Position numbers and translations under genes: made by a program. 32,589 nucleotides of DNA, from NCBI GenBank assembly GCA_947461225.1, contig CANHJV010000028.1, forward strand, positions 1 through 32,589, in the 5' to 3' direction. The first letter of the stretch is position 1, and each line of letters begins with the position of its first letter. The notes beneath the pieces are model-generated. The model did no database searches. It was not told the DNA's origin and was given only the letters and a program-made list of their open reading frames with translations. The stretch is from Gemmatimonadota bacterium (GTDB lineage: Bacteria > Gemmatimonadota > Gemmatimonadetes > Gemmatimonadales > Gemmatimonadaceae). Positions 2,108-32,362 of the stretch are shown piece by piece.

Positions 2108-5347
<3,240 letters not shown>

Positions 5348-9256: not shown

Positions 9257-9535
9257 ATGATTACCACCATCGTGCTGGTGCAGGCTGATCCGAAAACCAT
9301 TCCGGCCTGCGCGACCGCGCTGGCGGGCATTGAAGGGGTCAGCGAGGTCTACTCCGTGTCGGGCGCGTGGGATCTCGTGGCCATCGTGCGCGTGCCCGAT
9401 CTCGAACGCATCGCGACCGTGGTCACTGAGGAGTTCGCCAAAGTACCCGGCATTGTCCGCACGCAAACGCTCACCGCGTTCCGTGCCTACAGCCGCAACG
9501 ATCTCGAGCAGGCGTGGGACATCGGGGTCGAGTAG
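9257..9535 (+). CDS. Stand-alone Lrp/AsnC ligand-binding (RAM) domain protein
   Basis: 92 aa ITTIVLVQADPKTIPACATALAGIEGVSEVYSVSGAWDLVAIVRVPDLERIATVVTEEFAKVPGIVRTQTLTAFRAY is a complete RAM domain with no HTH. Confidence 0.9.
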   Translation: MITTIVLVQADPKTIPACATALAGIEGVSEVYSVSGAWDLVAIVRVPDLERIATVVTEEFAKVPGIVRTQTLTAFRAYSRNDLEQAWDIGVE

Positions 9536-9544
9536 TCGACCCCG
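9523..9544 (+). terminator. Hairpin spanning the stop codon of the RAM-domain gene
   Basis: Perfect inverted repeat cggggtcga-gtag-tcgaccccg with stop codon TAG (9533-9535) in the loop; no clear U-tract. Confidence 0.4.
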
Positions 9545-9573
9545 GATACGCGCTGCGCGCTATGTGTCACGCG

Positions 9574-10557
9574 TCACGCGTGGCAGCGCTGCCGCTCGTT
9601 GCGTAGCAGTTCGCGCCACGCGTCCGCTTCATAGCGCAGTACGATCGTGTACAGCGGCGCGGCGGCGAGCCTGAGCCCGAAGAACAACTCCGACTTGCCG
9701 TCGTTGTCCACATCGATGTGGTCGAGGTAGCGATAGCGCGGCGGCGAGAGCCTGTTGCCCAGCGTCGTGTACGTGAACGTCGGCTTGTAGCCGTACACGC
9801 CTTTGTCCAGCACCACCACCAGATGTCGGGGCCGCGCGCCCATCTGGCGCACGCTGTCGGCGACCACTTCGGGGTCATCGTACACCACCACGATCGTGGG
9901 CCGCGGTCCATTGCCGGTCTCGGCCACGTAGACGTCCCGCGTGTAGCGCGGCAGCAGCGACATCGAGATGCCGGCGGCCGGGGCGATCAAGGTTGCAATC
10001 GCGCCGATCGCGGTCTGCAGCTCCGCCGCCGACAGCGCGGTCACCGGCTGGAGCGGCGGTCGCTTCCCATTGGTGAAGAATTCCACGCCCGCAGGGATCG
10101 AAGCCACCGCACCGGGCAGTATGATCGAGCAGCCGGGGATCGAATCGAGCGGAGCGCCCTCCCACATGCCGCGCGTTGACCTCACGGGCGCCAACTCCCG
10201 CCCACCGCGGTACGGGATCAACGATTTCCCACCGACCAGATAGTCGAGATCGAACGAGCGCCACCCGCGATCGCTCAAGGTTAGCAACCGGAATCCCTGC
10301 GGTCCCATCGTGGCCAAGGGGACGACACGGGCGCCAGCGCTGTCGCGCGTGACGCGGAACAAGACGTCGGGATGCGTGGCGAGCAAGGTGCTGTCCCCTT
10401 GCCAGACGGGATCGCCCTGATCGGCGCTGAGCGCGTTCTTGACACGCTCCGTGGTGTCGCACGCTCCGCCGAGGAGCGCGATCGCCAAGGGCAGGGCACG
10501 AAGGGCTACGCCGCGGAGTCGCGGGGCGGCGATGGCAAAAGGTCGGGAGAGTCTCAC
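9574..10557 (-). CDS. Predicted lipoprotein/exported protein with VCBS/FG-GAP-like Asp motif
   Basis: GTG at 10557 gives a hydrophobic leader VALRALPLAIALLGGACDTTERVKN (lipobox-like). The C-terminal DHIDVDNDGKSELFFGLRL resembles an FG-GAP/VCBS calcium loop. The longer ORF to 10818 would overlap the divergent gene. Confidence 0.65.
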   Translation of the reverse strand: MRLSRPFAIAAPRLRGVALRALPLAIALLGGACDTTERVKNALSADQGDPVWQGDSTLLATHPDVLFRVTRDSAGARVVPLATMGPQGFRLLTLSDRGWRSFDLDYLVGGKSLIPYRGGRELAPVRSTRGMWEGAPLDSIPGCSIILPGAVASIPAGVEFFTNGKRPPLQPVTALSAAELQTAIGAIATLIAPAAGISMSLLPRYTRDVYVAETGNGPRPTIVVVYDDPEVVADSVRQMGARPRHLVVVLDKGVYGYKPTFTYTTLGNRLSPPRYRYLDHIDVDNDGKSELFFGLRLAAAPLYTIVLRYEADAWRELLRNERQRCHA

Positions 10558-10663
10558 GCCGTGAGTTTCGTGGGCGGGAGCGCCGAAGTCCACCACCGGA
10601 GGCCACGGGATTCCCGCGCGACACGGATGGGCCGCGTTGTCTGCGGGCGCCCGTCCTGCTAGC

Positions 10664-11722
10664 GTGCCCCTCGTGACTGATGAACACCCGCCCGCCGCCG
10701 CTGCCGCTACGGCCACCGATGCCTCGCTTCGCGGCGCCTTGCGCTCCCTCCGCGTGCTGTTCGGTGACGGCGCGCTGGTGGCGGCCGGCAGTGGCCCGCC
10801 CCTCGAACGCATGGCCATGCGCAGCGATCCGCCCTCGGTGGCGCCCTGCGTGCCGCTGGAGGCGCCCGGCGCGCGCCAGATCGCGGTGCCGAGCGAACCG
10901 CTGGTCGCGGCCTTCCTCGACGGCGTGCAGCGGAGTCGCGTGGTGGGTTACCTCGCCGGCTCACCGCTCATCTATGCCTCGGTCGCGGCGGCCGTCCGCG
11001 AGCGGGTGGCGCGGCGCCTCGAGACGTGGCGCGCGCCGAGCGTGCGTCGCGCGCTCTTCGTCTCGCGCGGCAAGCTCGGGGAGACGGCATGGAACCAACT
11101 GGTGGAAAGCGGGGTCCCGATGGTGGACATTACCGCCGATGTCGCGGACGAGGCGATTCCGGTCCACCCCTTCGCGCTCCGCGCCCGGGCGCTCGACTTG
11201 GTCGCGCTGGAGCGGGAAGGGCTCGAACGCCGGCTCGCCGCGGAGTGGTGTCGGAGTGAATCGCGATGGCTCTGGATCGACGGCGGCATTTCCGGCAATC
11301 TGGCGGTCGACGAACGGGCCACCGCCTTCGGCGTGGTGAAATCGCACACGACGCTGTACGGGAGCGCGGAGCAGGTGGAATCGGTGCTCACCCTCCGGGA
11401 GGCGGAACGCTCACCCGCCTTCCTGGTCGGCCATCGTCCGCGTCGCGCGGTCGCGAGTTGGTATCTGCGTCTGCGCACCACGGCAGGCGGCGATCCGATG
11501 CACGGGCTGGTGCGCGTGGAGATCTCGCCGCCGATGGACATGCTCGACCCTGATCACATCACCGACGACGCGCGCGCCCGGCTCACCGAGCACTGTGACC
11601 GCCTCTCCGCCGGCATTCTTGCCGAGCGGGCCCCGCTCTCGCTTCCCGATCCGCGATGGGATACCCTCACCTACGGCATTCATGCCTGTGAGATGTATCT
11701 CGATGCGCTCGTCGGCATTTGA
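10664..11722 (+). CDS. nurA: NurA-like nuclease (putative)
   Basis: SRWLWIDGGISGNL...FGVVKSHTTLYGSAEQVESVLTLREAERS... and C-terminal LPDPRWDTLTYGIHACEMYLDALVG are NurA-like. It lies directly upstream of a HerA-like ATPase. Start uncertain (TTG 10637, GTG 10664 or GTG 10673). Confidence 0.7.
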   Translation: MPLVTDEHPPAAAAATATDASLRGALRSLRVLFGDGALVAAGSGPPLERMAMRSDPPSVAPCVPLEAPGARQIAVPSEPLVAAFLDGVQRSRVVGYLAGSPLIYASVAAAVRERVARRLETWRAPSVRRALFVSRGKLGETAWNQLVESGVPMVDITADVADEAIPVHPFALRARALDLVALEREGLERRLAAEWCRSESRWLWIDGGISGNLAVDERATAFGVVKSHTTLYGSAEQVESVLTLREAERSPAFLVGHRPRRAVASWYLRLRTTAGGDPMHGLVRVEISPPMDMLDPDHITDDARARLTEHCDRLSAGILAERAPLSLPDPRWDTLTYGIHACEMYLDALVGI

Positions 11723-13727
11723 CCTTTTTCGTCGTGACGCTGTGACCTCGCCTTCCGTTGTGCCCGATGCTGTGTCGCTGCCGCTCGGTCGTGTCGTCGC
11801 GACCGAGAAAAAGCCCAATACGCCGCACGAGTTTCATTTCTGGACCGCGATCGATGCGCCCATCGGGATCGGCACGATCGTGCGCGTGGAGGGCAACACG
11901 CCAGTGGAGAACGTGATCCCACGCGTGTACGGGGTCGTCGTCGAAGGCTTCAGCTATAGCGATCTCCAGTCACCGCTGCACGATGTGCTCGGCCACGATG
12001 GCCGTCCGCACGCGGGGCCGCTGTCGCACACCGATCGCACCGAAATCCGGTTGTACACGGCGTCCGTGTTGCGGCACATCCCCGAAGAACCGTTGCAGCC
12101 GGTGCCGCTCGGGGCCGTGTATCTCGCCGACGATGCCGATGTGGCCGTGGCGCTGCGCATGGATGGCTACATCACGGGTGAATCATCTACCGGCATTCCG
12201 GTGGGCATGTACCGGGCCGGTGGCATGCGGTCGCCGATCTTCCTCGACGCCGATTTCCTGGTAGGACCGGAAGCCGCACACCTGAACATCTCCGGAGTGT
12301 CGGGACTCGCCACGAAGACCAGCGCCATCGAATGGCTGCTGCAGTCGATCTTCGCGCATTTCCCTGCCCATCGCGGAACCGTGGCCGCGGTGTGCTTCAA
12401 CGTGAAGGGGCCCGACCTGTGCTTCCTCGATCAGCCGGGCAAGCTCGAGCCGGCCGATCTCGAGATGTACGAGATGCTCGGCGTGCCACCGACGCCGTTT
12501 CAGGACGTGCAATACTTCGCGCCGTTCACCGCCCGCGGCTTCGCGCTGAACACGTTACGCTCCCATCCGGCGCTCGCCGACAGTGTGTCGCCGCTCACGT
12601 GGGGCCTCGGTGAAGTGCTGCAGTTCGCCGAGGTATTGCTGAACAAGGACGACATCGATGCGAAGGCCGACGCGCTCATCGATTTCATCCGAGAGCGCGT
12701 CGTCGGTAAGGACTTCGAGGAGCCCGGCTTTTCACGCACGCACCGCGTGCAGTCGTTCGCCGATCTCGACGCCTGGTTCCGCGATGTGCTGCGCAAGCTC
12801 GAGGATTCCAACGGCGACACGTGGCGCACCCACCACGCGGCCACCGTGCGCAAAGTCCGCAATCGGCTCTCCAATCTGTCCACGCGCTGCGCGGGCTTGG
12901 TGACCGACGATGGCGCCGTGTCCGATCTGCCCTTCGGGAGCTTTGTGGATCGCGCGGTGTACGTGGTCGATGTCGCTAATGTGGAGGAAGACGCGCAGGA
13001 TCTCGTTTTCGCCCGCGTGGTGTCCCGGTTGCGCGAACAACTCGAGCGACGAGAACTCGGCGTCGATCACGTCATCGTCTTCGTCGATGAGCTGAACAAG
13101 TATGCGCCTCATGATGGTCCCGATACGTATGTCCGCAAAATGCTGCTCGATATCGCCGAACGTGGTCGATACCTCGGGCTGGTGCTCTTCGGCGCCCAGC
13201 AATTCCGCTCGCAGGTGCATCGTCGCGTGACCGGCAACGCGGGGACCGCGCTATACGGGCGTATGGATGGTGATGAGCTGGCATCGCCCGGGTATCAGGT
13301 GCTGAGCCCGGCGATCAAGGCGCGCATGGCCACGCTCGACAAGGGGCAGCTCATGGTGCGGCATCCGCATTTCACGCAGCCGGTTTTCGTGCGCTTTCCC
13401 CGTCCGTCCGTGATGTCCGGTCGCGAGGGCGTGGAGCGCTTCCCGCAGGCGCCGGAGCCGTCGCTCGCGCAGGCGGTCACGCGTGAGCTGCGTCGCCTCG
13501 ACGAGACCATCGACCTGGGTTTCGTGCAGCAGACGATTCTGCTGTACGACGAGCCGGTGGTGCTGGCCGCGCGCAATGCGGTCGTGCGAACGCGTCCCGA
13601 CGATGTGAAGCGTGCCTTCGCGCGCGAACTCGCACGTCGGTCGCGCCCGACCGCGAGCGACGTCGAGTCGGTGACCCCGCGACCGCGCGCCCTGCGGTCG
13701 TTCTCCCCCGACGAATACGGCGGATGA
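11703..13727 (+). CDS. herA: HerA-like ATPase (HerA/FtsK superfamily)
   Basis: HAS-barrel-like N-terminus (IGTIVRVEG...RVYGVVVEGFSYSD), ISGVSGLATKTSAIEWLLQSIF at the Walker A position, VIVFVDELNKYAP Walker B, LGLVLFGAQQFRSQVHRRVTGNAGTALYGRMDGDEL typical of HerA. ATG at 11703 overlaps the nurA end; GTG 11742 is an alternative. Confidence 0.82.
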   Translation: MRSSAFDLFRRDAVTSPSVVPDAVSLPLGRVVATEKKPNTPHEFHFWTAIDAPIGIGTIVRVEGNTPVENVIPRVYGVVVEGFSYSDLQSPLHDVLGHDGRPHAGPLSHTDRTEIRLYTASVLRHIPEEPLQPVPLGAVYLADDADVAVALRMDGYITGESSTGIPVGMYRAGGMRSPIFLDADFLVGPEAAHLNISGVSGLATKTSAIEWLLQSIFAHFPAHRGTVAAVCFNVKGPDLCFLDQPGKLEPADLEMYEMLGVPPTPFQDVQYFAPFTARGFALNTLRSHPALADSVSPLTWGLGEVLQFAEVLLNKDDIDAKADALIDFIRERVVGKDFEEPGFSRTHRVQSFADLDAWFRDVLRKLEDSNGDTWRTHHAATVRKVRNRLSNLSTRCAGLVTDDGAVSDLPFGSFVDRAVYVVDVANVEEDAQDLVFARVVSRLREQLERRELGVDHVIVFVDELNKYAPHDGPDTYVRKMLLDIAERGRYLGLVLFGAQQFRSQVHRRVTGNAGTALYGRMDGDELASPGYQVLSPAIKARMATLDKGQLMVRHPHFTQPVFVRFPRPSVMSGREGVERFPQAPEPSLAQAVTRELRRLDETIDLGFVQQTILLYDEPVVLAARNAVVRTRPDDVKRAFARELARRSRPTASDVESVTPRPRALRSFSPDEYGG

Positions 13728-14710
13728 CGTCGGCTGTGCGCGTCCGCGGGTGGTGGATCGCCCGGATGTGTGGTGTGCTCACCGGCTCGTGTACGCTTGT
13801 GTGCGCGCTGGCCTTGCCGCCAGCGCTGCGCGCGCAGTCGATGCGAGTTGGTCCCGATGGTGTGTCGCTCATTGTGCGACCGCGCGTCGGTGACACCCTG
13901 CGTCTCCAGATGGAGCAGACCATCGAGATGAGCGGACGACGCACGGAATCGTCGGTGCCGCCGGTGGGCTCGGGCGCTGGCATCGACGGGCGTCGCGCCG
14001 GCGGGACAACGCTGCCGGCCGCTAAGTCGCCGGAGTACGGGCCGCGTCGCACGCGCGCCTCGCTCCGGGTCACGAAGCTCGTGATGTATGCGCACTCGCT
14101 CGTCGAGGCGAGCGATCTATCGACCACGACCTTGCTGGCCACGACCGACTCGATGGCCATGTGGGCCGGGGCGCCCGCTGAACAGGGGCGGCCGGAGATG
14201 CTCCCGCTTCCCGCCGACGGACGGCAGGTGCGGGTTCGCGTGACGCCCGATGGGGGCATGCGGGTGAGCGATCCACCGCCGGGGGCCATGGAACTCGGGG
14301 CCACGCTGGCCTCGATGCCCGCGCTGTTGCCCACCCATGCGGTGCGCGTGGGCGAGCGCTGGGTGCGCGACATCGTGCTCCCGTCGCTTCCCGTGAGCGG
14401 CTATCGTGCCGACGGCGTGGTGCGCACGCGATTCCGCCTCGATTCCCTCACCCAGGGTGGACGGAACGCGTGGATCTCCATGGATGGCGAACTCCGACGG
14501 GATGGCGCCGCGCGCGAACTGCCGGCCGGCACGCGGGTGGTCACGGCCGGCACCGTGCTCGGCACCATGGTCCTTGATCGGCTCCGTGCCTGGATCGTCG
14601 ATGCCCGCACCGTGATCGACGTGCAGTCCGAGGTCACGCCCGGTCCAGCCGACGCGGCTCGGCCCATGTTGCTGGATCTGCGCATCGTGCAGCGGATTCG
14701 CGTCCGCTGA
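13724..14710 (+). CDS. Uncharacterised exported protein
   Basis: 328 aa; N-terminal signal peptide (CGVLTGSCTLVCALALPPALRAQS). ATG overlaps the herA stop by 4 bp (ATGA). No confident family assignment. Confidence 0.75.
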   Translation: MTSAVRVRGWWIARMCGVLTGSCTLVCALALPPALRAQSMRVGPDGVSLIVRPRVGDTLRLQMEQTIEMSGRRTESSVPPVGSGAGIDGRRAGGTTLPAAKSPEYGPRRTRASLRVTKLVMYAHSLVEASDLSTTTLLATTDSMAMWAGAPAEQGRPEMLPLPADGRQVRVRVTPDGGMRVSDPPPGAMELGATLASMPALLPTHAVRVGERWVRDIVLPSLPVSGYRADGVVRTRFRLDSLTQGGRNAWISMDGELRRDGAARELPAGTRVVTAGTVLGTMVLDRLRAWIVDARTVIDVQSEVTPGPADAARPMLLDLRIVQRIRVR

Positions 14711-14767
14711 ACAGCGAGAGCGCCGCTTCGCGCTTTGAGCGGGCGTGGTCGTTCTGTAGCTTGCAGC

Positions 14768-15964
14768 ATGCGCCTGGTCCATCTCAGCGATCTCCATCTC
14801 GGATTCCGCCAGTATCAACGGCTCACGCCGACCGGAATCAACCAGCGCGAAGCTGATGTCGCCGCGACCGCGTCGCGGGCGGTCGCCCAGATCATTGCCT
14901 GTGCCCCCGATCTGATCGTGGTGGGCGGCGATGTGTTTCACACGGTGCGCCCCTCGAACCCGGCGATTCTGCACGCCTTTCGCACCTTCTCGGCCCTGCG
15001 CGATCGGCTCCCCGATACGCCGATCGTGATGGTGGCCGGCAATCACGATGCGCCGCGCACGTCGGAAACGGGGTGCATCCTACGGCTCTTTCGTGAAATC
15101 GGCGTGCACGTCGCCGATGCGAAGGCCGAACTGTTCACCTTTGCGGGGCGTTCGCTCGCGGTGCTGGCGGTGCCCGACGTGCCCGGGATCGATCGTCCGC
15201 CCTTCGTGCCGCCCGAAGGCTTCGAGCACACGGTGCTGCTGCTGCATGGTGAGATCGCCGGCATGCTCCCCGCGCACGCGGCCCCCGCCGATCGGGCGGC
15301 CATCGAGATCGATCCGGCGGAACTGCACGCCGAGCAGTGGAGCTATGTGGCGCTCGGCCACTACCACGTGTATCGCGAAGTGGCCACGCGGGCGTACTAC
15401 AGCGGCTCGCTCGACTACACGAGTTCGAATCCGTGGGGGGAACTGCGCGAGGAACGCGAGCAGCGCATCCCCGGCAAGGGCTTTATCGAACACGATCTCG
15501 TGTCGGGTGCCCATCGCTTTCATCCGGTGGCGCCATCGCGCCCGTTGTTGGATCTCGAACCGATCGATGCCAGTGGGATGGGCGCGACCGACGTCGACAG
15601 CGCGTTGCGTGCACGGGTCGACAGCGCGATCGGCGGGATCGACGACCGCGTCGTGCGCGTCACGGTGCGCAACATCGCGCGACACATCGTGCGCGAACTC
15701 AATCACGACGCGCTGCGCGAGTATCGGAAGCGCGCCATGCACTTCCATCTCGACACGCGTCGGCCGGAAGTCCTGGCGCGTCGTGGCAAGGGAGAAGGCG
15801 CGCCGGGCCGTCGGGCCACCTTGCCTGAGCTGGTGGCAGAGCGACTCAACGAGCGTCCGTTGCCGCCCGGAGTGGATCGAGAACAGCTCGTCTCGCTCGG
15901 CTTGCGCTATCTGCAGCAGGCCGAAGACGCCGCGATGGCCGCCCTTCCTGTGCTGGAGGGCTGA
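14768..15964 (+). CDS. sbcD: Mre11/SbcD-type DNA repair exonuclease
   Basis: MRLVHLSDLHLGF...LIVVGGDVFH...VMVAGNHDAPRTSE...LLLHGEIAG...VALGHYHVYREV: metallophosphoesterase motifs of Mre11/SbcD in order. ATG at 14768. Confidence 0.95.
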   Translation: MRLVHLSDLHLGFRQYQRLTPTGINQREADVAATASRAVAQIIACAPDLIVVGGDVFHTVRPSNPAILHAFRTFSALRDRLPDTPIVMVAGNHDAPRTSETGCILRLFREIGVHVADAKAELFTFAGRSLAVLAVPDVPGIDRPPFVPPEGFEHTVLLLHGEIAGMLPAHAAPADRAAIEIDPAELHAEQWSYVALGHYHVYREVATRAYYSGSLDYTSSNPWGELREEREQRIPGKGFIEHDLVSGAHRFHPVAPSRPLLDLEPIDASGMGATDVDSALRARVDSAIGGIDDRVVRVTVRNIARHIVRELNHDALREYRKRAMHFHLDTRRPEVLARRGKGEGAPGRRATLPELVAERLNERPLPPGVDREQLVSLGLRYLQQAEDAAMAALPVLEG

Positions 15965-15967
15965 CGG

Positions 15968-18445
15968 ATGCGACTGATCTCCCTCCGCCTCCAGAACTTC
16001 CGTCAGCACGCGGACACGCGCATCGAGTTCGAGCGTGGACTGACGGGCATCATCGGGCCCAACGGGTCAGGGAAGTCCACACTGTTGGAAGCGATTGCCT
16101 GGTCGTTGTACGGCACGCCCGCCGCACGAGGCACGCGCGATTCCATCCGGTTCTCACGCGCCGCACCGCGCGCCTCTGTAAAGGTGGAGCTGGAGTTCGA
16201 GCTCGCCGGCCACCGCTATCGCGTGATGCGCGGCCTCACGAACGCCGAGGTCTTCCTCGATGGCGGCGATGTGCCGATCGCCAACACGATTACCGGCGCC
16301 ACGGAGTTGCTGCAGCGACGGCTCGGCATGACGCGTTCCGAGTTCTTTCACACCTACTTCACGGGCCAGAAGGAACTCGATGTCATGGCCTCGCTCGGGG
16401 CGGCGGAGCGGGCCCGCTTCCTCTCGCGTGTGTTGGGCTACGATCGGATCAGCGGCGCGCAGGAGATTGCGCGCGAGCGTCGTCGCGCGCTCATGGCGGA
16501 AATCAACGGGCTCAAGCAGGGCATGCCCGACGCTGACGCCATCTGGCGCGGCGTGGCCGATGCCGAAGCCCGATTGGCGGTGGCGCGAACGCGTGCCGCC
16601 GAAGCCGACGTGGCGCGCGTTAGCACGGCCGAACGCCTGAGCGCGGTGGCACCGCAGTGGCTCGATGCGCAGGCGCAGCGGGACCAGATGCAGCAGCTGC
16701 TGGCCGAGCTGCGCGTGGCCGAGAGCGAGGCGATGGGATTCGCCCGCGATGTGGAGCGGCTCGATCGCGAGCTCGACGCCGTGGCCGTGGCGCACAGCGA
16801 GCTGGCGCCGTTGCGTGAGGCGATTTTGCCGCTGCTGTCGTTACGGGCCGAACTGGAATCGCTGGAGCAGCTCGCGGCGGCCGACGCGCGACGGCAGGCG
16901 TTGATGGAGCGGGTGCGTACCGCGGCCGAGGACGACGCCAAGCTGGCCGAACGTGCCACGCGACTGGAATCGGCGCCGACGCTGGAACGCGATGCGCAAC
17001 AGCAGCTCACTACGCTTCGCGGCACGCTCACCGAGGTGGAGCGGACGTTTGACGCCGAGAGCAAGGCCTGGACGAGGGATGGACAGGAGGCGGAGACCCG
17101 TCTCGAGGCTCTCCGACGGCAGTACGCGGAGTTGACCGACCAGCGCGACACGCTCGAGGGCCTCGGCGAGGAATCCCCGTGCCCCACGTGCGGGCGGCCG
17201 CTCGGTGCGTCCTATCGTGGCGTGCTCGACTTGCTCAACGAGCAGATCGAGACCGTGCGCATCGATGGGAACTACTACCGACAGCGCGTCGAACAGCTCG
17301 CCGCCATGCCGGCGGCCATCGAACTGATGGACGAGCAGCGCCGCACCCTGCAGACCGAGCTGTCGGCGGCCGAGCGGCGGCTGCTGCGAATTCAGAACGC
17401 GCTGGTGGAGGCCACGCAGGTCGCGGATGCGCGGGCTGAGCTGGCCACACGACTCGCGCAGGCGACGGAGCAACTGGCGGCGCTACCGCTGGGCTACGAC
17501 GCGCAGCGGCATCGCGCGTTGCGCGACGAGGTCGTGCGATTGCAGGAACTCGAAACGAAGGCCGCGCGGGTAGGCGGGCTCGTGGAGCGTGAGGATATCA
17601 CGCGCAGCGAACGGTTGCGTGTCACGGTCGTGCGAGACGCGGCGCGTACGAAGGTCGTCGAGCTCGAGCGGCAACGTACCGCGCTCGGGATGGACGACAC
17701 GTCGTATCAGCGTGTCCGTGACGCCCATGAGCGTGCCGCGACCGAAGCCCGTCGGGCGGAGCTCGATGCGGTCGGCGCCGCGGGCGAAGCGGAGCGGGCG
17801 CGGGCTGCGCTCGACAGCGCCGAGCAGGGGCGACGCGATCTCGCGCGGCTGCAGGAAACGCTCGACGTGCTCGAGAAGGACAAGCAGCTGCACGATGAGC
17901 TCGATCGCGCGCTCACCGACCTGCGCACCGATCTCAACTTCCAGTTGCGCCCGGAGCTGGCCGAGATCGCCAGCGGATTCCTCGATGGGCTGACGGATGG
18001 GCGGTACAGTGCGCTGGAGTTCGACGAGGACTACAAGGTGCTCGTCATGGAGGAGGGGCTCCCCAAGCCCGTCATCTCCGGCGGCGAGGAGGACCTGTGT
18101 AATCTCGTGCTGCGCTTGGCGATTTCGCAGATGATCGCCGAACGTGCCGGGCAGGCATTCTCGTTGCTCATTCTCGACGAAGTGTTCGGGTCACTCGACG
18201 AAACACGCCGGGCGAATGTGGTCGAACTCTTGCGCCATCTGCATGATCGATTCGAGCAGGTCATCGTGATCACGCACATCGAGCAGGTCCGTGAAGGACT
18301 CGATCGCGTGCTGTTGGTGCGCTTCGACGAGACGCGCGGGTGCAGTGTGGTGCACACCAGCGCGCCGGCGCTGCCCGATGAGCCGCTCGACGACGAGCTC
18401 GTCGGGGCCGACGGTCGCAGCCCGCTGACGCTGGCGGACACATGA
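15968..18445 (+). CDS. sbcC: Rad50/SbcC-type SMC-like ATPase
   Basis: Walker A IIGPNGSGKSTLLEAIAWSLYG, Q-loop FTGQKELD, zinc hook SPCPTCGRPLG, signature VISGGEEDLCNLVLRLAIS, Walker B LLILDEVFGSLDE; long coiled-coil arms; 825 aa. Confidence 0.96.
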   Translation: MRLISLRLQNFRQHADTRIEFERGLTGIIGPNGSGKSTLLEAIAWSLYGTPAARGTRDSIRFSRAAPRASVKVELEFELAGHRYRVMRGLTNAEVFLDGGDVPIANTITGATELLQRRLGMTRSEFFHTYFTGQKELDVMASLGAAERARFLSRVLGYDRISGAQEIARERRRALMAEINGLKQGMPDADAIWRGVADAEARLAVARTRAAEADVARVSTAERLSAVAPQWLDAQAQRDQMQQLLAELRVAESEAMGFARDVERLDRELDAVAVAHSELAPLREAILPLLSLRAELESLEQLAAADARRQALMERVRTAAEDDAKLAERATRLESAPTLERDAQQQLTTLRGTLTEVERTFDAESKAWTRDGQEAETRLEALRRQYAELTDQRDTLEGLGEESPCPTCGRPLGASYRGVLDLLNEQIETVRIDGNYYRQRVEQLAAMPAAIELMDEQRRTLQTELSAAERRLLRIQNALVEATQVADARAELATRLAQATEQLAALPLGYDAQRHRALRDEVVRLQELETKAARVGGLVEREDITRSERLRVTVVRDAARTKVVELERQRTALGMDDTSYQRVRDAHERAATEARRAELDAVGAAGEAERARAALDSAEQGRRDLARLQETLDVLEKDKQLHDELDRALTDLRTDLNFQLRPELAEIASGFLDGLTDGRYSALEFDEDYKVLVMEEGLPKPVISGGEEDLCNLVLRLAISQMIAERAGQAFSLLILDEVFGSLDETRRANVVELLRHLHDRFEQVIVITHIEQVREGLDRVLLVRFDETRGCSVVHTSAPALPDEPLDDELVGADGRSPLTLADT

Positions 18446-19419
18446 CCGCGACGCCGCGTCCCTGGCGCACGGCCCGTCCGCTCGAGGGGCCAAGCGTCGC
18501 CACCATCGACGACATTCCGCAGCTCAACGAGGTGTTCGCGGACGCGTTCACGGAGCGCTACCGGAAGGATGGTATGAATGGCGTGCGCGTGCCGCCGCTC
18601 AATCCGGCGATCTGGCGTTACGCGATCGAGGACGCCGGCGACGGTGCGCTGTGCTGGCGCGACGAACGTGGGCGCATTGCCGCGTTCAACATCGTGCATC
18701 ACTCCGGTACGGAAGGCTGGATGGGGCCGCTGTGCGTCCGTCCCGACTGCCAAGGCGCCGGACTGGGAAAGATCATCGTCGAAAGCGGCATGCGCTGGCT
18801 GCGCCAGCAGTCGGTGAAGGTGATCGGACTCGAGACGATGCCGCGCACGATGGACAACATCGGTTTCTACTCGAATCTCGGATTCGTCCCCGGCCATCTC
18901 ACGGTCACGCTGACGCTCGAGGCGGCGTTGGGCGAGCGCGCGCCGTCATTATTGTCGCGGTTGTCGTTGCGCGAGAAAGCGGCCGCGATGGCCGCGTGTC
19001 GCGATCTCACGCTGCGGGTCATGCCCGGGTACGACTTCACGCGCGAGCTCGAACTCACCGATCGTCACGCACTGGGCGACACCATTCTGATGGGGCCGCT
19101 CGAGGCGCCGACCGGATTCGCGGTCTGTCACACCGTTCCGCTGGTCGAGGGGCGGACGCGGGACGAACTCCGTGTGCTCAAGCTCGTGCTGGCCAGGCGA
19201 AGCGGCCTGCCCGCGTTGCTGGGCAGTCTCGCGGATCTGGCGCGCCGATCAGGAACACGGCGTGTCGCGATTCGGCTGCAGGGCGATTACCCGGATGCGT
19301 ATCGTACCCTGGTCGCGCTGGGCGCGCGGGTGCGCTGGACGGATCTGCGGATGAGCGCCTACGGCTGGAACGAAGTCCCTCCCACCGAGGGCATGGTGCT
19401 CTCGAATTGGGAGATTTGA
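18442..19419 (+). CDS. GNAT-family acetyltransferase, probably tandem GNAT fold
   Basis: MGPLCVRPDCQGAGLGKIIVESGMRWLRQQ...IGFYSNLGFVP is an acetyl-CoA binding GNAT signature. A second, weaker GNAT-like segment fills the C-terminus. Start overlaps the sbcC stop by 4 bp (ATGA). Confidence 0.82.
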   Translation: MTATPRPWRTARPLEGPSVATIDDIPQLNEVFADAFTERYRKDGMNGVRVPPLNPAIWRYAIEDAGDGALCWRDERGRIAAFNIVHHSGTEGWMGPLCVRPDCQGAGLGKIIVESGMRWLRQQSVKVIGLETMPRTMDNIGFYSNLGFVPGHLTVTLTLEAALGERAPSLLSRLSLREKAAAMAACRDLTLRVMPGYDFTRELELTDRHALGDTILMGPLEAPTGFAVCHTVPLVEGRTRDELRVLKLVLARRSGLPALLGSLADLARRSGTRRVAIRLQGDYPDAYRTLVALGARVRWTDLRMSAYGWNEVPPTEGMVLSNWEI

Positions 19420-19431
19420 GACCGTGGGGGG

Positions 19432-19602
19432 TTAGCGCTTCTGGTCTGGACCCGACGGGGTGTCGCGCACGACGATGCGCCAGATCACGAGAAAGACGCC
19501 ACCGGTGAGCATCAGGTGGATCCAACCGGGGGCGTCGGTCGTATACGTGACACCGCCCCACGCGATGAGCATCACGATTCCGGCAAGCAGATAGAGGTCC
19601 AT
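19432..19602 (-). CDS. Small two-TM membrane protein
   Basis: MDLYLLAGIVMLIAWGGVTYTTDAPGWIHLMLTGGVFLVIWRIVVRDTPSG: two hydrophobic helices, reminiscent of small DUF5670/lmo0937-like proteins. Confidence 0.7.
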   Translation of the reverse strand: MDLYLLAGIVMLIAWGGVTYTTDAPGWIHLMLTGGVFLVIWRIVVRDTPSGPDQKR

Positions 19603-19616
19603 GCCGTAATCTCGCA

Positions 19617-19646
19617 TTGCGCACGCCGTGGCGCACCATATACAAT
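19617..19646 (+). promoter_or_regulatory. Sigma70-like promoter for the predicted ncRNA
   Basis: TTGCGC (19617-19622), 18-bp spacer, TACAAT (19641-19646). Confidence 0.5.
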
Positions 19647-19652
19647 ATCGGC

Positions 19653-19882
19653 GTGTAGTACCGATCCTCCGGGGTCGATACTCAACCCGTATGCGGGGCG
19701 GAGAGAATTACCTCTTGAGCCGATAAGTCCTAAGAAAAGGTCCGACAGACTGCGTTTACGTCATGCCCCAGTGCGGGGAAGGCGACCGCGCGGTGAGGAC
19801 CTTATCAGTATTCTTTGGGCTTCAAGACCTCCTCTTCGTTCCGCACCTTGTGCGAAAGCCCCGCCGGTTGGCGGGGCTTTCG
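19653..19882 (+). ncRNA. ssrS: Putative 6S RNA (primary transcript; mature part probably about 19695-19850)
   Basis: Non-coding interval with its own promoter and terminator. TTGAGCCGATA (5' side) and GGGCTTCAAG (3' side) resemble TGAGCCGATA and GGGTTCAAG in E. coli 6S as I recall it. Arms gcggagagaa/ttcgttccgc, tcttga-gcc/ggc-t-tcaaga and gataa..ggtcc/ggaccttatc pair into a long rod with internal bulges. Confidence 0.6.
19853..19882 (+). terminator. Rho-independent-type terminator
   Basis: Perfect 13-bp stem CGAAAGCCCCGCC-GGTT-GGCGGGGCTTTCG. Confidence 0.8.
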
Positions 19883-19986
19883 TGTGTCTGTCCCTGAGCC
19901 GAAGGTCGTGGGCTGCCGTACTGGCACGCACCGGGGCGACGGGCCGGCCGATGGAACCTCTCCCCCGTTCGGGTCGTTGGGTACCT

Positions 19987-20400
19987 ATGCCTATCGTCAC
20001 CGCCACGCGACTGCTGCGCTTCAATGCGGCCCACCGCGTTCACAATCCTGCGCTCTCCGACGAGGAGAACACCCGCCTGTTCGGCAAGTGCAACAATCCG
20101 AACTGGCACGGTCACAACTACACGCTCGAGGTCTCGGTCAAGGGACCGGTCGACGAGCGCACCGGTTATGTGATCGACCTCGGGCTGTTGCGCGATACGG
20201 TGGAGCGGCACGTGGTCAGCGTGACCGACCATCGCAATTTCAATATCGACGTGCCCTACATGCAGGGGATCAACCCAACCACGGAGAATGTCGTGGTCGG
20301 CATGTGGCGTGAGTTGGAGCCGGTCGTGGCGCCCGGAAAACTGGTGCGGCTGCGCCTGTGGGAAACCGAGAATAACTATGTCGACTACGAGGGAGAGTAA
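19987..20400 (+). CDS. 6-pyruvoyl tetrahydropterin synthase family protein (PTPS-II-like)
   Basis: [21 protein letters not shown]...[22 protein letters not shown]: Cx5HGH motif and zinc His ligands. ATG at 19987 chosen over the ORF start at 19516, which covers the ncRNA. Confidence 0.9.
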
Positions 20401-20404
20401 GCAC

Positions 20405-21049
20405 ATGATCCGACCGACTTTGGCGGCGAGTGTAGGCGTGGCGGCGGTCGATCCCGACGACATGGAAACGAACGGCGCCACGCAGGTGGAATTCGAGGGG
20501 CTCGTCCGGCGCCAGCTCGAAATGCTGGGTGAAGATCCCAATCGCGATGGACTGCTCAAGACACCGAGTCGCGTCGCGAAGTCGATGGCGTGGCTGACCC
20601 GTGGCTATGACCTCGATGCCCGCCAGGTCATCGGCGACGCATTGTTCGAGGAGAATCACGAGAACATGGTGATGGTGCGTGACATCGAGATGTATTCGAT
20701 GTGCGAGCATCACATGCTCCCGTTCTTCGGCAAGGTCCACGTGGCATACATCCCCAACGGCAAGATCGTGGGCTTGTCCAAGCTTCCGCGTGTGGTCGAG
20801 GTGTTCGCGCGTCGACTGCAGGTGCAGGAGCGGCTCGGCGAGCAGATCGCCAACGCGATCGACGAGGTGCTGCAGCCGAAGGGCGTCGGCGTCGTCATCG
20901 AAGCCGTGCACCTGTGCATGATGATGCGCGGCGTCGAGAAGCAGAGCTCGCGTACCATCACATCGTCGCTGCGTGGGCAGTTCCGCGACGACTCCAAGAC
21001 GCGCAGCGAATTCCTGCGGTTAGCGCACGGCCCGTCCGCGGCATTCTGA
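20405..21049 (+). CDS. folE: GTP cyclohydrolase I
   Basis: [47 protein letters not shown]...[22 protein letters not shown] typical FolE. Confidence 0.96.

Positions 21050-30322: not shown

Positions 30323-32362
<2,040 letters not shown>

Follow-up and report, generated by a model that had tools for sequence, protein, structure and literature searches.

Does a bacterium of the Gemmatimonadota encode the NurA, HerA, Mre11 (SbcD) and Rad50 (SbcC) functions in one locus, and would such a set resect DNA ends in place of RecBCD/AddAB or alongside it? The question arises from positions 10664-19419 of the window, i.e. the whole stretch of 32,589 nucleotides analysed here, where six genes lie on the plus strand, overlapping or closely spaced, with the open reading frames and junctions that the initial annotation had described. 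The first gene (10664..11722) encodes a predicted NurA-type nuclease of 352 amino acids with an RNase H-like fold; its GTG start is uncertain, since the open frame extends back to 10637 and the conserved portion begins about 20 codons in. It overlaps by 20 bp the second gene (11703..13727, ATG start), whose 674-aa product is predicted from profile and fold matches to be a HerA-type hexameric dsDNA translocase ATPase. An ATGA overlap leads into the gene for an exported protein with a signal peptide (13724..14710), a variable member of the cluster that matches Pfam DUF6263 under the cut-off (E = 0.06), and 57 bp further on lies the gene for the SbcD/Mre11 nuclease (14768..15964; TIGR00619 sbcd, E = 2.9e-20; Metallophos, E = 4.2e-10), in which the metallophosphatase motifs SDLHLG, GGDVFHT, GNHD, LLHGE and LGHYH are all found. 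After a gap of 3 bp comes the gene for the SbcC/Rad50 ATPase (15968..18445; PRK03918 Rad50, E = 4.8e-50; SMC_N, E = 4.5e-24), whose CPTC zinc hook reads CPTCGRP; judged from these motifs, SbcD and SbcC are intact. The last gene, joined by another ATGA overlap, encodes a GNAT acetyltransferase (18442..19419; Acetyltransf_1, E = 2.1e-10). The overlaps and the conservation of the arrangement point to co-transcription of the six genes, and a scan of 9400-20000 gave neither a sigma-70-like promoter nor more terminators than expected. No Rfam or tRNA features were found in the window. Downstream of the operon are PTPS-type and GTP cyclohydrolase I genes for pterin synthesis (19516-21049), and the sole other clear DNA-repair gene among the window genes scanned is that for NAD-dependent DNA ligase (ligA, 30323-32347, minus strand). 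In addition, 2108-5347 encodes a multi-PAS hybrid histidine kinase with a receiver domain, opposite which the other strand is open for 1078 codons as a high-GC shadow frame.

Single-protein searches were weak for the products of the first two genes. Pfam gave metallophosphatase, SMC/Rad50 and GNAT domains in the fourth, fifth and sixth genes but no domain in the NurA-like and HerA-like ones; Pfam, NCBIfam and PADLOC yielded nothing usable for the NurA-like protein and weak HerA matches, those from PADLOC being off-target. Family profiles were therefore required. The profile of 42 NurA-like sequences from Gemmatimonadota relatives (alignment A1) matched in PDB the NurA of Deinococcus radiodurans (drNurA, 7f6d_H, E = 2.3e-5) and the Thermotoga nuclease TM1739 (1zup, E = 0.0017), and a Foldseek search with the AlphaFold (AF2) model (pLDDT 90) again gave drNurA as the best match (7f6d_G, E = 2.8e-12), with 1zup_A also present (E = 8e-10). 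The Pfam NurA model scores in just one of the 42 members (E = 0.022). Residues D86, D206 of the second DG motif, K226 and R331 are invariant in 42/42, and D86, K226 and R331, mapped via alignments with a cyanobacterial intermediate and drNurA, are the equivalents of drNurA D53, K201 and R309, which are needed for nuclease activity (PMC9960219). As for the W8/pin motif of drNurA, there is no conserved tryptophan in the first 70 residues (any tryptophan in 10/42), where a helix is predicted; since this motif is described as an additional one absent from archaeal NurA (PMC9960219), it is not family-defining. By sequence and modelled-fold homology, the first gene is a NurA of the RNase H-like type. 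For HerA, the profile of 45 sequences from Gemmatimonadota relatives (alignment A2) had D. radiodurans HerA (drHerA, E = 9.1e-59) as its sole PDB match up to E = 1, and the AlphaFold model (pLDDT 78) aligned near full-length to drHerA (best Foldseek match 7wrw_A, E = 3.3e-35), with archaeal HerA and the defence HerAs of the SIR2 and DUF4297 systems well behind. A HAS-barrel is detected in eight of the 45 members (best 1.1e-5), whereas the Walker-A-like GVSGLATKTS, including K205/T206, and the Walker B VDELNKYAP (D462, E463, aligned with drHerA 487/488) are invariant in all of them. These matches identify the second gene as HerA, with a predicted HAS-barrel and a RecA-like domain bearing Walker A and B, and the NurA-like and HerA-like assignments first made for the two genes both hold. 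In the P-loop (window 12294-12323, residues 198-207) a threonine replaces the glycine before the lysine; the variant is invariant here and common to drHerA, and may be a reason why DUF87 models miss these HerA proteins. An invariant D87 near the NurA-binding acidic patch of drHerA is suggestive only as a sign of NurA binding. The pore arginines R495 and R552 of drHerA are not conserved in Gemmatimonadota HerA, and as the W8/pin region is not conserved either, the splitting of duplex DNA at NurA may differ.

Is the arrangement kept in relatives? Among the 298 Gemmatimonadota genomes surveyed, in which the relatives were collected, about 158 have a close HerA, which in nearly all genomes where linkage can be judged adjoins nurA and lies upstream of sbcD-sbcC-GNAT. 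On shared contigs, nurA and herA are at most 300 b apart in 74/79 genomes of the family f1 and in 42/53 others, and herA and sbcD at most 1.5 kb apart in 72/74 and 29/38, respectively. A separate scan of GTDB genomes gave 80 loci, nearly all from the Gemmatimonadota and partly overlapping with the survey, as some contigs are from the same genomes; there nurA is adjacent to herA in 73/77, sbcD follows herA at a distance of up to 2.5 kb in 62/62, GNAT is present in each of the 45 HerA loci long enough to show it, and the exported gene in only 39/62 HerA loci. Across the phylum the genes run nurA-herA-(exported)-sbcD-sbcC-GNAT, in many cases with the PTPS gene next, and HerA is about 60-70% identical across families at this fixed syntenic locus. 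Since the order recurs phylum-wide, the gene arrangement is real and far beyond chance; nurA-herA and sbcDC are linked in the relatives, and all four genes of the nurA-herA-mre11-rad50 operon are kept together. In six genomes from the genus of the window, however, nurA and herA are precisely the two genes missing: as far as the contigs extend, the lipoprotein-like gene upstream, the gene for the exported protein, sbcD, sbcC, GNAT and PTPS are all kept, and the same pattern is seen in other genera, with GNAT in nearly all HerA-negative loci. In the SbcDC tree the rows without HerA fall into ten clades, of which three lie within the window's genus; the shared synteny favours loss, while the tree alone cannot separate gain from loss. 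Because nurA and herA are missing jointly while the rest stays, they behave as a pair that sbcCD does not need, and SbcCD is thus not an obligate partner of HerA-NurA. As a part of the explanation that we hold to be probable as a whole, nurA-herA would be a two-gene unit which lineages can lose while retaining SbcCD. The exported gene and GNAT stay with sbcCD where nurA-herA is missing; therefore these two extra genes go with sbcCD, and the suggestion that they are partners of a HerA-NurA machine is not supported. That sbcCD, GNAT and the exported gene are unchanged without nurA-herA could also mean that two unrelated repair modules with no common function are neighbours by chance, but archaea, Oceanithermus (PMC5448004), Cyanobacteriota, Chloroflexota and Actinomycetota all have the same set, with a HerA identity of about 25-32%, and this recurrence makes such a coincidence very unlikely.

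The initial annotation had left two options, a machine in place of RecBCD/AddAB or alongside it. In the window's own genome, contig 88 carries recB (TIGR00609, E = 4e-205) and recD (TIGR01447, E = 9e-135), and contig 226 a recC fragment; the NurA-HerA set thus stands alongside RecBCD, and its use in place of RecBCD/AddAB is refuted for this genome, so that we consider it extremely improbable in this organism. Some phylum-wide counts do favour replacement: a RecC or strong PDDEXK_1 match was found in 45/158 genomes with a close HerA versus 124/140 without (Fisher p ~3e-27, kinship ignored), in a hand tally where some strong PDDEXK_1 matches are not AddAB. In family f1 the corresponding figures, for RecC or a PDDEXK_1 match of any strength, are 38/86 genomes with HerA versus 15/17 without (Fisher p = 0.001), but a paired test for reciprocal loss that took the tree into account did not reach significance, the informative pairs being too few. 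PDDEXK_1 alone misjudges RecB, as G000 scores just 2.6e-5 and the strong match in G019 comes from a distinct 497-aa gene, which is why searches for RecC and UvrD were added. In the PDDEXK_1, RecC and UvrD-type searches, the near-complete genomes G129 (one contig, 100% complete), G004 and G080, which carry the operon, gave no PDDEXK_1, RecC or detectable RecB/AddA and just two UvrD-type helicases each, and many operon-carrying relatives are without detectable RecBCD/AddAB. On the other side, neither a close HerA operon nor RecBCD/AddAB was found in G200, G202 and G186. Close relatives come in three states, i.e. RecBCD only, both, and NurA-HerA only. These distributions are suggestive of interchangeability. 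Tentatively, and with more doubt than confidence, we propose that across the Gemmatimonadota NurA-HerA(-SbcCD) and RecBCD/AddAB may be interchangeable resection machines, one being dropped where the other suffices, and that this replacement may have run many times, leaving some complete genomes on the NurA-HerA set alone. As candidates for AddA/RecB in the HerA-negative exceptions, the ~970-aa UvrD proteins of G013, G200 and G186 were rejected, being UvrD with a DnaQ-like exonuclease insert, as was the UvrD-type protein of G202, which is helicase-IV-like instead; G112 was rejected as a RecBCD-free genome because it does have recD, close to the end of a contig, so that what is missing there is probably due to the assembly. 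Several Gemmatimonadota encode such a UvrD-type helicase of ~970 aa, in which the exonuclease domain, DnaQ-like (RNase_T) and 3'-5' in polarity, is placed between the two helicase halves (L282:5639-8545, L283:4360-7290, L285:5197-8097, L286:5379-8270 and L287:5193-8117). In G019, L136:145-5777 holds an extra large helicase followed by a PDDEXK_1 gene that is not related to RecB; this may be a defence or prophage element.

From the gene identities, the intact motifs, the conserved linkage, the paired absence and the presence of RecBCD, we think it fairly likely that the locus encodes a Deinococcus-type NurA-HerA helicase-nuclease together with SbcD-SbcC, acting in end resection alongside RecBCD in this genus; the biochemical activity, a physical NurA-HerA complex, cooperation with SbcCD and a role in repair are predicted from homology. 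SbcCD would open or trim blocked or hairpin DNA ends, the HerA hexamer would then pump duplex DNA into the NurA dimer, which would degrade the 5' strand, and the remaining 3' tail would be used for recombination. In many relatives without detectable RecBCD/AddAB, end resection may have no other dedicated helicase-nuclease than NurA-HerA. Caution against a simple pro-repair role comes from D. radiodurans, where deletion of nurA-herA gives more, not less, resistance to UV and mitomycin C (PMC9960219), and from Thermococcus kodakarensis, whose HerA-NurA complex mostly cuts both strands (PMC12977600). NurA-HerA with SbcCD might instead mainly destroy foreign DNA such as phage or plasmid ends, not make recombinogenic 3' tails: the anti-phage HerA-nuclease pairs SIR2-HerA and HerA-DUF4297 are among the fold matches, an antiviral role has been suggested for archaeal HerA-NurA (PMC12977600), and nurA-herA is repeatedly missing, as accessory systems are. 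Relatives of the set also occur on plasmids, as nurA-herA-sbcD-sbcC in Sphaerospermopsis and Candidatus Chlorohelix and as herA-sbcD-sbcC-nurA in Streptomyces, NurA being confirmed by profile, and the Streptomyces set is near Wadjet-type genes (TIGR02680, TIGR02678, DUF2397). However, the fixed locus, the synteny across families and the high identity of HerA look like those of a core gene and not of a mobile defence island, the PADLOC matches are weak and off-target, and many operon-bearing relatives are without detectable RecBCD/AddAB; we thus judge the destruction of foreign DNA to be an unlikely main function, and DNA-end resection parallel to RecBCD is most likely the role. ImmA/IrrE metallopeptidase genes (L280:4098-4832 and L279:3775-4947) lie beside the Chlorohelix and Streptomyces plasmid sets; IrrE-type proteases control the Deinococcus DNA-damage response.

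Compared with D. radiodurans NurA-HerA (PDB 7f6d, 7wrw, 7wrx; PMC9960219), the Gemmatimonadota proteins have the same fold, catalytic residues, nurA-herA pairing and GxSGxATKTS P-loop variant, at ~28% identity for HerA and ~18% for NurA on fold alignment. Besides the W8/pin motif and the pore arginines, the main differences are that the pair lies directly upstream of sbcDC, while D. radiodurans is stated to have no Mre11-Rad50 (PMC12977600), and that RecBCD is present in the window's genome but absent in Deinococcus (PMC9960219). The archaeal nurA-herA-mre11-rad50 operon of Sulfolobus and Thermococcus (PMC2288612) has the same four functions in one locus, although at the sequence level the two are very far apart (HerA of T. 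kodakarensis is 17% identical in the fold match), the Gemmatimonadota cluster has extra genes, and its SbcC/D, judged by context only, would be of the usual bacterial lineage. The term 'archaeal-style', as the module was first called, applies to the gene set only; its proteins belong to the Deinococcus type found in bacteria. The SIR2-HerA and HerA-DUF4297 systems likewise join a HerA-family ATPase with a nuclease, but there is no SIR2 or DUF4297 partner here, and their fold matches (E ~1e-15 to 1e-17) are far weaker than that of drHerA (3e-35). The four-gene set is not unique to the Gemmatimonadota and is known in bacteria, though thinly: Oceanithermus profundus has the same arrangement, nurA-hepA-sbcD-sbcC, a likeness in published gene order, with sbcD and sbcC downstream of hepA reported in one sentence (PMC5448004). 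In contrast to that single species, the Gemmatimonadota set is phylum-wide, includes GNAT and, optionally, the exported gene, and occurs with RecBCD in the same genus; our literature search found no paper joining Gemmatimonad, HerA and RecBCD. Bacterial NurA-HerA has been described as confined to a few bacteria, e.g. Deinococcus-Thermus (PMC9960219), whereas the present survey places it, in synteny and linked to SbcCD, throughout much of a large phylum. This locus is real, well conserved, correctly identified and widespread, and the genomes with and without nurA-herA among close relatives are a useful natural series that makes the role of NurA-HerA in bacteria testable by comparison.
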